Source: Ralstonia pickettii | GTDB taxonomy: Bacteria > Pseudomonadota > Gammaproteobacteria > Burkholderiales > Burkholderiaceae | Assembly: GCF_000607165.1 (NCBI RefSeq) | Contig: NZ_JFZG01000002.1 | Span: 1-64,000, forward strand | Length of the DNA stretch: 64,000 nucleotides | Direction of reading: 5' to 3' | In this document: piece by piece, positions 30,432 through 46,506 of the stretch | How positions within the stretch are numbered: the first letter of the stretch is position 1 | How the letters are laid out: each line of letters opens with the position of its first letter | Notes under the pieces: generated by a model | Database searches by the model: none | Told to the model about the DNA's origin: nothing | The model's input: only the letters and a program-made list of their open reading frames with translations | Position numbers and translations under genes: made by a program

Positions 30432-31511
30432 TCAGTTGCCGCTGCCCGGCACCAGACGGCGCTTGCGCACGGCGTCGGCCAGCGTTTCCAGCACCTTCAC
30501 CGAATCGTCCCAGCCGATGCACGCATCGGTCACGCTCTGGCCGTAGGCCAGGTCCGACACCGGCGTGCCCTGCACGTGGTCCTGGCGACCAGCGTTGATG
30601 TGCGACTCCACCATCACCCCCACGATGCGGTTGTCGCCGGCAGCCATCTGGCGGCCGATGTCTTCGCACACCGGGATCTGGTTTTCATGCTTCTTGCTGC
30701 TGTTGGCGTGCGAAGCGTCGATCATCAGGCGCGCGGCCAGGCCCGACTTGGAGATGGCGTCGCAGGCTTCCTGCACGCTGGCGGCGTCATAGTTGGGCGC
30801 TTTGCCGCCGCGCAGGATGATGTGGCAGTCCTCGTTGCCCGCCGTCGACACGATGGCCGAATGGCCGCCCTTGGTGACTGACAGGAAGTGGTGCGGCTGC
30901 GATGCGGCCTTGATGGCGTCCACGGCGATCTTCACGTTGCCATCGGTGCCGTTCTTGAAGCCGACCGGGCACGACAGACCGGAAGCCAGCTCGCGGTGCA
31001 CCTGCGATTCCGTCGTGCGCGCGCCGATTGCGCCCCAGCTCACCAGATCAGCGATGTACTGCGGGCTGATCACATCGAGGTATTCGGTGCCGGCGGGCAG
31101 GCCCAGCTCGTTGATGTTCATCAGCAGCTCGCGCGCGGTGCGCAGACCGTCGTTGATCTTGAAGCTGCCATCCATGTGCGGGTCGTTGATCAGACCCTTC
31201 CAGCCGACCGTGGTGCGCGGCTTCTCGAAGTACACGCGCATCACGATTTCCAGCTCGTTTTTGAAGCGCTCGCGCTGCTCGACCAGGCGGCGGGCGTAGT
31301 CCATCGCTGCCTTGGTGTCGTGAATGGAGCAGGGGCCGATGATGACGATCAGGCGATCATCCATGCCGTGCAGGATGCGGTGCATCGCGTTCCGGCTTTG
31401 GTAGATCAGGTCGGACACGGTGTCGCTGCACGGGAATTCGCGGATCAGATGCGACGGCGGCGTCAGCTCTTTCAGTTCGCGAATGCGCAAATCATCGGTG
31501 TTCTTCGGCAT
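30432..31511 (-). CDS. aroG: 3-deoxy-D-arabino-heptulosonate 7-phosphate synthase (class I alpha, AroG type)
   Basis: AroG condenses phosphoenolpyruvate and erythrose 4-phosphate, the committed step to chorismate and all aromatic amino acids. The 359-residue protein is typical class I-alpha: LIVIIGPCSIHD (metal cysteine), YFEKPRTTVGWKGLINDP, GARTTESQVHRELASG, and DASHANSSKKHENQ. Phe, Tyr or Trp feedback type cannot be assigned safely from sequence. The gene has its own promoter and an apparent ribosome-mediated attenuator (31816-31610) with a leader peptide rich in Phe, Tyr and Trp. That predicts expression rises when aromatic aminoacyl-tRNAs are scarce. Confidence 0.97.
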   Translation of the reverse strand: MPKNTDDLRIRELKELTPPSHLIREFPCSDTVSDLIYQSRNAMHRILHGMDDRLIVIIGPCSIHDTKAAMDYARRLVEQRERFKNELEIVMRVYFEKPRTTVGWKGLINDPHMDGSFKINDGLRTARELLMNINELGLPAGTEYLDVISPQYIADLVSWGAIGARTTESQVHRELASGLSCPVGFKNGTDGNVKIAVDAIKAASQPHHFLSVTKGGHSAIVSTAGNEDCHIILRGGKAPNYDAASVQEACDAISKSGLAARLMIDASHANSSKKHENQIPVCEDIGRQMAAGDNRIVGVMVESHINAGRQDHVQGTPVSDLAYGQSVTDACIGWDDSVKVLETLADAVRKRRLVPGSGN

Positions 31512-31609
31512 GGAAAGCTCCGGGGATGTGTCTTGAGTTCTATTGGAAACGTCTACTGTGTTCGGATCGTGTTTCGCGTCGGTGCCGGGGTGGGGCAGGT
31601 GACTGGGCG

Positions 31610-31640
31610 AAAAAAAACCGCCAGGGTCGCTGGCGGTTTT
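31610..31640 (-). terminator. attenuator terminator in the aroG leader
   Basis: On the minus strand an 11-base stem (31640-31630 with 31624-31614, AAAACCGCCAG and its complement) with a 5-base loop runs into eight T residues. It lies 19 bases after the leader peptide stop and about 100 bases before the aroG ATG. The left arm (CCGCCAGCG, 31636-31628) is also perfectly complementary over nine bases to CGCTGGCGG at 31696-31688 inside the leader peptide frame, so this terminator has a mutually exclusive antiterminator. Confidence 0.88.
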
Positions 31641-31658
31641 CGGTATCTGCTGGGTGCT

Positions 31659-31742
31659 TTATTTTTGCTGCAAGCGCCCCTCTCCTTCCGCCAGCGGTGC
31701 GAGATGCCAAAAGTAAAAGTAAAAAAACTTGGCGAAGGACAT
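31659..31742 (-). CDS. aroG leader peptide, rich in aromatic codons
   Basis: This frame has ATG at 31742, 27 sense codons and TAA at 31661-31659. Residues 5-14 read KFFYFYFWHL, and Phe is also at position 3, so eight of the first twelve residues are Phe, Tyr or Trp. A ribosome stalled on this run would cover TTCGCCA (31736-31730), which can otherwise pair with TGGCGGA (31693-31687), and would free the antiterminator segment. The product is probably not itself functional. There is no good ribosome-binding sequence ahead of the ATG (CCTCTC), which is the main weakness. Confidence 0.8.
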   Translation of the reverse strand: MSFAKFFYFYFWHLAPLAEGEGRLQQK

Positions 31743-31815
31743 GAGAGGAAAACGCGTCGATGCAGGAAAAATTGTGGCGCAGAGGTGACTTGAAACTACT
31801 GCGCCGCACCAATCG

Positions 31816-31851
31816 AACCGTCTTTATAAACCCTTTCTTTGAGGGCTGCAA
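31816..31851 (-). promoter_or_regulatory. sigma-70 promoter of the aroG leader
   Basis: On the minus strand TTGCAG (31851-31846) is followed after exactly 17 bases by TATAAA (31828-31823). A start near 31816 would give a transcript of about 75 bases before the leader peptide and 305 bases before aroG. It lies 48 bases after the tldD stop, where I see no convincing tldD terminator, so some read-through from tldD is also possible. Confidence 0.75.
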
Positions 31852-44435: not shown

Positions 44436-44477
44436 GTTTCGTTGGCCGGGGCAGGTATGTTGCCGTCCATCGGGGTG

Positions 44478-44508
44478 AAAAAAAACCGCCTCACAAGGAG
44501 GCGGTTTC
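44478..44508 (-). terminator. intrinsic terminator after protease 2
   Basis: A 10-base stem (44483-44492 with 44498-44507) with a 5-base loop is followed on the minus strand by eight T residues, 19 bases after the stop of protease 2. The stem sequence AAACCGCCTC is the same as in the terminator of protease 3 (46650-46677). Confidence 0.85.
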
Positions 44509-44526
44509 GCGATGCGCAGGTCCGTG

Positions 44527-46506
44527 TCAATGCGAAAGCGAACGCCGCTTCCAACCTGTCAGCCCCCCGGCCACCAGCAGACCTGCAACCCACAGTGGGA
44601 GCGCGCCACCGCCACCGCCACCGCTACTGCTAGTCGCAGTACCGCTACCCGTGCCTGAGCCCGATGTCGCCGCCGCCGCGGTAGTAGTCACGCTGACCGT
44701 ATCTGACGCAGTTGCGCCCGAGCTATTCGTCAACGTCACGCTAAAGCTGTACACGCCCGCGACGCCCGGCGTGAACGTGGCGGTGCTGACGCCGTTGGCA
44801 TCGGGGCCAGTCGTCGTCAGGGTGATGGGCGTCCCGGCGGTCTGGGCCCAGACGGTGCTGCTGGTCGTTTTGTTATAGCCGGCGCCTCCTATGGACGTCA
44901 GCGTGACGGCCGTGTTGGCGGTCACGCTCGACGCCGATGCCGTGGCATGCACGGTCGGCGAGCCTTGCGCCTGCGCGACGGCTGCACCGGCGTCCAGCGT
45001 ACCGGCACCGCACACGCCAGCGTGTGTTGCGCAGTAAGTGCCGGCCACGAACGGTCGGGCAGATTGCCTGATGATCGCCGTGATGTTGTCTGGGGTCAGT
45101 GCCGGCTGAACCGACAGCATCAGCGCTGCGGTCGCGGCCACATGGGGCGTGGCCATCGACGTGCCGATGTCCTGCGCGTAGGCGTCGCCTGCGGGAGATG
45201 CCACCGGTGTTGTCGTGCCAGTATTGGACAGCGACACAATTTTGCTGGCGGAGCCGGGAATGACCGTGCCCGCACCGCCGCCAGGGGCGCTGATCACCGT
45301 CTGCGCGCCGACATTGGCGTAGAACGCGTTGTCGCCTTCCTGCGAGTGTGCCGTCACGGCGATGGTGCCAGTGCAGTTGGCCGGCGCATCCACGGGCCCA
45401 GCTTCGTTGCCGGTGGCCGCCACGATGGTGACGCCCAACGCACGCGCTGCGGTAATGCTGTTCTGCTCGAGTGTCGAGCAGCTTCCGGAACCGCCCAGGC
45501 TCATGTTGATGACTTTGACGGGCGTCGGGTTGTTGGTTACGCCCGGCACCGAGCCGCCGGACAGCCACGTCACGGCGTCCATGATGTCGGAGGTTGCGCC
45601 GCCGCACTTGCCCAGTGCCCGCGCCATTTGCACACGCACGCGGGGGGCGATGCCTGCGATACCGATGCCATTGTTGCGCTGCGCCCCGATCTGGCCGGCG
45701 ACGAAGGTGCCATGCCAGCTGCTGTTGCTTACCGAGCTACCGCAAAACGTGGGATACAACGCGGCGTCGCTGCTGGTCACCCAGTCGCCGGGGTCGGAGG
45801 GATCGGTATTCGTGAGCGTGTTGTTGGCGCCGTTGTTGACGAAACCGGATGGGATCGTATTGCCCGTCTTCGGATCAGAGCTGCCGGTCATGGCGCTGTT
45901 GCTGACGAAGTTGCGGCCCGTGCCGAAGCTCAGCCCAACGAAGTCGGCATGGTCTGCACGGATGCCGGTGTCGACAATGCCAACGCCAACGGTATTGACG
46001 CCGGTCGTGGTATCCCACGCGGCTGTCACGTTGGCGCCGCCGGGCGCGCTGGCCGTCGGCGCCAGCAGGTTCCATTGCTGTCCAAACAGCGGATCGGTGG
46101 CGAGTGCCATCGGCCGCATGATGCGGTCGGGCGACACATATTCAAACTGGCCGCTGGCCTCCATCCGCTGCGCGACGGTCTGGGCGTCTTCCAGCGTCAT
46201 GACGTTGGGCAGCGTCAATACGTGGGCCCCGCCCGACATCGGGCGCTTGTATGTCATCGGCAACTGCGCTGCCGCCGACCAGCGTTGCACGGTCGCCACG
46301 TCTGCGCGAGTTGCCGCGCCGTCTGTTGCAACCGATTGCGTCTTCAACCCCGTGCTTTTCTCTTTTACGACCAGCTGCGTCACCCATTGCATCTGCGTAT
46401 TGAACGTTGTGGATTTCTCCACGGCCAGCGCTGGCGCAACGTGATACGACACCAACCCAAGCGCTAACAGCGCCTGTACTACACCCCCGGCAACCATTGT
46501 CTTCAT
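44527..46506 (-). CDS. S8 subtilisin-like serine protease with GlyGly-CTERM tail (protease 2)
   Basis: This 659-residue paralogue of protease 1 has a signal peptide, an I9-like propeptide (RPMSGGAHV near 88-96, SPDRIM at 125-130), catalytic Asp179 (GIVDTGI), His265 (SSWHGTF) and Ser450 (GTSMATP), an Ig/PKD-like domain and a tail of glycines, a hydrophobic span and KRRSLSH. The first 130 residues are largely identical to protease 1, pointing to a recent tandem duplication with divergence mainly in the catalytic and tail regions. It has its own terminator and an upstream motif shared with protease 1. Confidence 0.9.
   Translation of the reverse strand: MKTMVAGGVVQALLALGLVSYHVAPALAVEKSTTFNTQMQWVTQLVVKEKSTGLKTQSVATDGAATRADVATVQRWSAAAQLPMTYKRPMSGGAHVLTLPNVMTLEDAQTVAQRMEASGQFEYVSPDRIMRPMALATDPLFGQQWNLLAPTASAPGGANVTAAWDTTTGVNTVGVGIVDTGIRADHADFVGLSFGTGRNFVSNSAMTGSSDPKTGNTIPSGFVNNGANNTLTNTDPSDPGDWVTSSDAALYPTFCGSSVSNSSWHGTFVAGQIGAQRNNGIGIAGIAPRVRVQMARALGKCGGATSDIMDAVTWLSGGSVPGVTNNPTPVKVINMSLGGSGSCSTLEQNSITAARALGVTIVAATGNEAGPVDAPANCTGTIAVTAHSQEGDNAFYANVGAQTVISAPGGGAGTVIPGSASKIVSLSNTGTTTPVASPAGDAYAQDIGTSMATPHVAATAALMLSVQPALTPDNITAIIRQSARPFVAGTYCATHAGVCGAGTLDAGAAVAQAQGSPTVHATASASSVTANTAVTLTSIGGAGYNKTTSSTVWAQTAGTPITLTTTGPDANGVSTATFTPGVAGVYSFSVTLTNSSGATASDTVSVTTTAAAATSGSGTGSGTATSSSGGGGGGALPLWVAGLLVAGGLTGWKRRSLSH

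Follow-up and report, generated by a model that had tools for sequence, protein, structure and literature searches.

In the pheA (PheL) and trp (TrpL) attenuators of E. coli, a leader peptide rich in the residue that is sensed is followed by mutually exclusive 2:3 and 3:4 hairpins, the latter ending in a U-run. Where a pathway branches, more than one of its end products can also be represented by codons in a single leader, as in the branched-chain ilv operons. The nearest known case to the element described here, aroR of Corynebacterium glutamicum, was reportedly first described by Neshat et al. in 2014. It is reported to encode a Phe-Tyr-Phe leader peptide and to control the aroF (DAHP synthase) operon through ribosome-mediated attenuation, with Phe being effective and Tyr without effect (PMC11802643, PMC4046766). 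In Sinorhizobium meliloti, the transcript of the leader trpL (peTrpL) is described as beginning at the ATG itself (PMC7298713).

Attenuators of aromatic genes have also been predicted by comparison of genomes. A table of predictions from 2005 lists attenuators of tyrA operons, among them DAHP synthase-tyrA in Vibrio and the long gyrA-serC-pheA-tyrA operon of Bordetella parapertussis (PMC1173090). The accessible part of a comparison of proteobacterial regulons covers TrpR, TyrR and gammaproteobacterial attenuators, and mentions there no aroG attenuator of the order studied here (PMC5343134). A literature search covering mostly open papers found no such attenuator. As far as we searched, therefore, the element is undescribed, although it is of a known kind.

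We describe herein a candidate attenuator upstream of aroG in Ralstonia pickettii. The window, i.e., the whole stretch of 64,000 nucleotides that was analysed, comes from contig NZ_JFZG01000002.1. The element resembles C. glutamicum aroR, by anatomy only, in placing a Phe/Tyr leader before a DAHP synthase gene; it differs in belonging to another phylum and in having a run of six or seven aromatic residues rather than Phe-Tyr-Phe. An earlier note on this DNA had described the arrangement as a departure from known practice, which is too strong a wording, since a Phe-Tyr-Phe leader already precedes a DAHP synthase gene in C. glutamicum, according to those same sources. Compared with pheA and trp of E. 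coli, the window element precedes the first common step of the pathway, its leaders combine Phe with Tyr and, in some cases, with Trp, segment 2 lies within the open reading frame (ORF), and there is no Shine-Dalgarno sequence. Its mixture of residues recalls the ilv leaders, which belong to another pathway.

Results

Anatomy of the locus

All elements lie on the minus strand. The features are as follows.

31823-31851, minus strand: promoter-like sequence TTGCAG-17-TATAAA, read from the sequence and kept in the genus
31659-31742, minus strand: leader peptide ORF of 27 codons, MSFAKFFYFYFWHLAPLAEGEGRLQQK, from sequence and conservation
31730-31736, minus strand: segment 1, TTCGCCA, pairing with segment 2 in most Burkholderiaceae-type loci
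31707-31727, minus strand: codons 6-12, putatively regulatory, reading Phe Phe Tyr Phe Tyr Phe Trp, with Phe/Tyr kept by synonymous variation and Trp not universal
31688-31696, minus strand: segment 2, CGCTGGCGG, within the leader ORF (codons Pro-Leu-Ala-Glu)
31628-31636, minus strand: segment 3, CCGCCAGCG, able to pair with segment 2 by nine complementary bases
31610-31640, minus strand: intrinsic terminator, 3:4 stem plus a run of 8 T, backed by covariation, fold -16.0 kcal/mol
30432-31511, minus strand: aroG, encoding a type I DAHP synthase and presumed to be the gene under control, 359 codons plus stop, by NCBIfam match

The aroG frame opens with the ATG at 31511, and its product scores above the NCBIfam AroG cut-off (NF006723, 589.7 versus 568 bits). 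The upstream neighbour on the same strand is tldD (NF008006, 687.9 versus 513 bits). Direct reading and recomputation returned every part of the anatomy that the earlier note had listed. The leader ORF runs from the ATG at 31742 to the TAA at 31661-31659, with KFFYFYFWHL as residues 5-14. The part of segment 2 that faces segment 1 is TGGCGGA (31693-31687), and the nine-base match of segments 2 and 3 is where it had been placed. The terminator stem is of 11 bp (31640-31630 with 31624-31614) and is followed by 8 T at 31617-31610, four of which are able to pair inside the stem.

The promoter-like sequence consists of TTGCAG (31851-31846), a 17-nt spacer and TATAAA (31828-31823). It is the best match 5' of the leader to a promoter matrix, and TTGCNG-17-TATAAA recurs in 16/16 same-genus sequences. 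It is probably in use, and transcription is predicted to start near 31816, about 74 nt upstream of the leader ATG. A built-in consensus scan of the window listed neither promoters nor terminators (0 of each), the former because TATAAA lacks the T that the scan demands in a -10 box, and the latter probably because four of the eight T were counted as stem.

The 211-nt leader RNA folds more stably than its shuffles (z = -3.62; 0/200 equally stable). When both strands of the window were searched with ATG, GTG or TTG starts, this was the sole ORF of 12-50 amino acids with at least five Phe/Tyr/Trp per ten codons.

A separate observation concerns AAAGACGGTTCGATTGGTGCGGCGCAGTAG (31796-31825, minus strand), which extends from the -10 box into the predicted 5' UTR. 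It shows at most one change in 16 same-genus sequences, a conservation for which the attenuator gives no explanation, and the window copy is able to form a GGCGCAG/CTGCGCC stem.

Conservation and distribution

The best 80 of 583 aroG relatives found in a scan of named genomes were compared. An aromatic-rich ORF stands upstream of aroG in 79/80, and after every one of these 79 leaders comes a hairpin whose 3' arm is GGCGG-like, together with a T-run. A strict leader-plus-terminator test was passed by 78/80 relatives, as opposed to 0/80 reverse strands and 0/800 dinucleotide shuffles. Of the two failures, L079 has aroG close behind the upstream gene and L032 has a frameshifted leader. Across the family, the leader region has a DNA match at E <= 0.001 in 230/299 genomes, a count of matches alone. 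The peptide is identical in 15/16 genomes of the same genus, with one substitution in the sixteenth.

A wider, hand-picked sample covered 21 families of the order with 60 upstream regions. Fourteen passed the strict test (0/60 reverse strands and 0/1200 shuffles did), and nine more had a leader and terminator by eye, bringing the total to 23/60 in nine families including the window's own. No leader was seen in 37/60 regions, nor in 12/21 families, each represented by one to four regions. Beyond the order, 40 regions were taken in rank order with three places skipped (two for an internal stop, one for a contig end). The fortieth, L194, proved to come from a tenth family of the same order and has a leader. 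Judged by these sequence signatures, the element recurs in nine further families of the order. The other 39 regions, all from other orders, yielded one candidate, L185. In L183, L196, L205, L206 and L214, 4-5 aromatic residues were found, with no terminator-like T-run rightly placed.

Several loci depart from the pattern. The leader frame of L022 (Caballeronia megalochromosomata) and L032 (Candidatus Burkholderia humilis) is shifted just past the aromatic run, and in L032 the shifted frame continues through the terminator. In L079, L122 and L117, aroG lies close behind the end of a tldD-like gene without leader or terminator, an apparent loss of the whole element.

Within the R. pickettii genome, no leader-like ORF was found before pheS (TIGR00468), the PF00800 gene, the PF04715 gene or a second type I DAHP synthase gene, whose product is 59% identical to AroG; the search required at least four aromatics per ten codons in the 400 nt ahead of the frame or in its first 120 nt, so that operon-internal genes could escape it. 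Across the genome, an RNA model of the element (R1) is matched over its full length once, and the 27 further matches listed are partial, mostly to the terminator end. The second-best leader-model match in the window (44476-44563, minus strand) ends in CCGCCTCCTTGTGAGGCGG plus 8 T and looks like an ordinary terminator. The PF04715 region of the same genome (L223) holds a 28-codon ORF, MFLNRKRVDAGGDRGAWPWRPWHALVRA, with three Trp in ten codons; it begins 389 nt ahead of the trpE-type gene frame, has no T-run nearby and could be due to chance.

Comparison with Rfam, as the earlier note had suggested, placed no family on the window at its gathering threshold; the Phe_leader model (RF01859) reached 22 bits versus a gathering score of 55 (E 0.22). 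NCBIfam profiles gave 0 families for the three leaders tried, and peptides so short may escape them.

Coding constraint on the leader

In 55 Burkholderiaceae-type (type-A) leaders, aromatic codons fill 328/330 of the six positions from -10 to -5 ahead of Pro-Leu-Ala, and at those positions TTT/TTC and TAT/TAC vary among leaders. The codon table omits L022, L032, L064 and L081, which fit neither type. The 14 distinct aromatic blocks differ by 18 synonymous and 8 non-synonymous changes (uncorrected for relatedness), and seven of the eight non-synonymous changes swap one aromatic residue for another. This coding constraint supports the predicted translation of the leader.

Phe is encoded by TTT in 282/347 cases (81%) in the 79 leaders, versus 55/491 (11%) in the aroG genes next to them, counted over their first 340 codons. 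Slower decoding, or keeping the stretch unstructured, are possible reasons for the excess.

The segment 2 codons CCG CTG GCG are unchanged in 55/55 type-A leaders, and the same codons are also common in aroG (74%, 61% and 45% of their residue, respectively). More telling are 22 divergent leaders, where a GGYGG core lies 2-17 nt past the aromatic run in 20, as opposed to 5.3 expected under synonymous recoding. Segment 2 is thus constrained at the base level, beyond what the peptide alone would demand.

Terminator and alternative pairings

The earlier note had called for covarying stems, and this expectation held for the terminator, where four pairs show two-sided changes in 12 cells, a level that 0/500 shuffles reached. 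Covariation is slight in the 2:3 helix, which is intact in 90% of cells and has two-sided changes in 3 cells only, matched by 12/500 shuffles; the 2:3 core is nearly invariant and thus little informative on its own. The 22 divergent leaders all have a stable hairpin ahead of a T-run (22/22), the set having been picked for it.

Synonymous recoding offers a second measure. A 2:3 helix equally strong occurs in <=5% of recodings at 36/57 loci of L002-L058 and 3/22 loci of L059-L081; among the divergent leaders it does so at 7/22, with the remaining 15/22 above 5%. The corresponding numbers for 1:2 are 14/57 and 1/22. The 1:2 helix is present in most Burkholderiaceae-type loci and weak or absent in the Oxalobacteraceae type. 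The full 1:2, 2:3 and 3:4 logic that had been proposed fits most of the former loci; in the latter, 1:2 is poorly kept.

By the usual anatomy of an attenuator, the locus has a leader ORF with codons for the end products and a terminator before the structural gene. Complementarity, the recoding control and simulation likewise point to an antiterminator that has one arm in common with the terminator and that a stalled ribosome would set free.

The note had named as a weak point that the leader stop lies about 27 bases past segment 2. The distance is indeed 27 nt in the window, the upper end of a range of 5-27 nt among 77 loci (L022 and L032, with their frameshifts, being left out). With a tail as long as this, a ribosome at the stop codon would leave segment 2 uncovered, and 1:2 may re-form behind it.

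Two further ideas were rejected. A local hairpin in segment 2 (TCTC..CCG-CTGG-CGG..GAGA), considered as a pause signal, falls short of synonymous recodings in stability (mean z +1.33; 1/79 loci below -1 and 12 below 0). Compensation of a longer distance between stop and segment 2 by a stronger 1:2 helix was not borne out (Spearman -0.19, p 0.10, 77 loci).

Geometry of a stalled ribosome

In the window ORF the aromatic codons occupy nt 16-36 and segment 2 begins at nt 47. Stalling was simulated at 14 chosen loci, 11 of the Burkholderiaceae type and three of the Oxalobacteraceae type, the RNA being treated as available for pairing once it is 12 nt past the first base of the A-site codon. Only RNA ahead of the front edge of the ribosome was simulated, and 1:2 is thus beyond the reach of this model.

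At L002, a locus of the window type with the same peptide, stalls at any of codons 6-12 permit 2:3 to form before segment 4 is made, and those from codon 15 onward do not. In all 11 Burkholderiaceae-type loci, the antiterminator is possible up to a stall codon between 13 and 15 and is gone one or two codons later. In two of the three Oxalobacteraceae-type loci, stalls early in the aromatic run yield little 2:3 (0.05-0.14 at codons 6-11 of L068 and 0.30-0.36 at codons 4-6 of L076). Under equilibrium folding, the terminator is usually favoured despite the stalled ribosome (0.73-0.87 for L002) and falls below 0.5 only at codon 10 of L013 and codon 13 of L048. Antitermination would thus have to be kinetic. 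Kinetic control is also assumed for the E. coli trp attenuator.

Initiation of leader translation

The lack of a clear ribosome-binding sequence, another weak point named beforehand, is real and general. None of 102 leader starts has a Shine-Dalgarno match of at least 5 nt, and 11 have one of 4 nt; at aroG starts, matches of at least 5 nt occur in 37/80 and of at least 4 nt in 76/80.

Outside the window's family and the family of the Oxalobacteraceae type, 15/19 leaders have a TANNNT box ending 5-10 nt before the ATG, eight of them at 6 nt; in control windows shifted away from this position the box averages 4% and never exceeds 11%. A -10-like box so close to the start codon predicts leaderless or nearly leaderless translation in these more distant families. 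Such a transcript start at the leader ATG would resemble that of S. meliloti trpL; the latter differs in sensing Trp and preceding trpE, and the window leader is not predicted to be leaderless. Leaderless mRNAs are reported for B. cenocepacia and C. metallidurans, and the supplement of one paper reportedly lists 82 short 5' UTRs of B. cenocepacia (PMC5688073).

The box at 5-10 nt is found in 0/83 leaders of the window's and Oxalobacteraceae-type families. The window and most of the same-family loci listed have a -10-like box 35-80 nt ahead of the ATG instead, which argues that the window leader is not leaderless. Their sequences predict a 5' UTR without a Shine-Dalgarno sequence, from which the leader would have to be translated.

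Discussion

Most probably, with a probability of about 0.85, the element attenuates the transcription of aroG in the trp-type, ribosome-mediated manner. Sequence comparison lends good support to the core of the earlier proposal, in which an aromatic leader peptide serves a putative attenuator of aroG. In the mechanism that we propose, a ribosome would translate the leader peptide close behind RNA polymerase. With ample charged tRNA-Phe (and tRNA-Tyr), it would pass over segment 2; where segment 1 exists, 1:2 could re-form behind the passing ribosome. Segments 3 and 4 would then pair, and transcription would end before aroG. Under a shortage of Phe or Tyr, the ribosome would stall at codons 6-11, covering segment 1 or keeping it off segment 2. 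The freed segment 2 would pair with segment 3 before segment 4 is made, and aroG would be transcribed. It is from this arrangement that we infer a response to tRNA charging.

When each of 101 leaders (79 + 22) is scored over its densest 12 codons, Phe is present in 101, Tyr in 99 and Trp in 58, with means per leader of 4.3, 2.3 and 0.6, respectively. Phe is thus most likely the main signal and Tyr the second, with Trp being optional. The statement that one leader senses all three aromatic amino acids was accordingly overstated, given Trp in 58/101 leaders versus 101 for Phe and 99 for Tyr. A narrower version, in which the attenuator integrates all three in this genus so that shortage of any one turns aroG on, deserves a tentative place. 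The Trp codon is kept in 16/16 same-genus genomes and in 44/55 type-A leaders, and with codon 12 (Trp) of L002 in the A-site, the simulation still frees segment 2 and gives 2:3. Trp sensing in the window's genus is therefore possible. Against integration of all three stand the single Trp codon beside six Phe/Tyr codons and the replacement of Trp in other type-A leaders (Ser in 7/55, Ala in four); Ser-Asp takes its place in 6/10 loci named Cupriavidus, and Ser in 20/20 Oxalobacteraceae-type leaders. Moreover, C. glutamicum aroR, with both residues in its Phe-Tyr-Phe run, is described in a review as acting on Phe limitation and not on Tyr availability (PMC11802643). On balance, we doubt that all three are integrated.

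Neither TrpR (PF01371) nor a TyrR-type helix-turn-helix (TIGR04381) has a match in the genome, and an E. coli control was positive for both profiles. A joint reading can be put together, in which an attenuator of at least ten families replaces TyrR/TrpR, works without a Shine-Dalgarno sequence, is leaderless in several families, senses any of Phe, Tyr or Trp in this genus, and does so mainly through otherwise rare UUU Phe codons. That all of these parts hold at once seems unlikely to us.

A terminated leader might also have a function in trans, whether as small RNA or as peptide, for which peTrpL/rnTrpL of Sinorhizobium meliloti sets a reported precedent; this addition is improbable here, as the cis function already accounts for the observed conservation. 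The peptide might instead be a TnaC-like nascent arrest peptide that responds to aromatic amino acids in free form rather than to tRNA charging. It is short and near-identical within the genus, and aromatic ligands would suit such a sensor; however, little is kept across families but aromatic density and the segment 2 codons, the order, spacing and flanks of Phe and Tyr vary in a way unlike an arrest motif, and the aromatic run changes in length by whole codons, all of which make this reading very improbable. That the hairpin is merely the terminator of tldD, with the ORF incidental, is scarcely credible, for although tldD lies upstream on the same strand and aroG is close behind it in L079 and L122, two loci that lack the leader ORF, a genus-conserved promoter-like sequence separates tldD from the leader, the leader and segment 2 are under coding and nucleotide constraint, respectively, and the 5' arm of the terminator is complementary to the ORF.

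The trp-type attenuator, if real, bears on several matters beyond this locus. It would be a compact natural case in which to ask how two or three amino acids are weighed by a single leader, and by what means translation of an attenuator leader proceeds without a Shine-Dalgarno sequence. The divergence among families, with aromatic density and the placing of segment 2 kept, provides a series for the rule of ribosome spacing, and the element is a candidate for a new Rfam family. It is also a possible handle for the production of aromatic compounds in laboratory strains of Cupriavidus or Paraburkholderia. It would explain how entry into the aromatic pathway is controlled in a genome without a match to TrpR or a TyrR-type regulator, and perhaps in many of its relatives.
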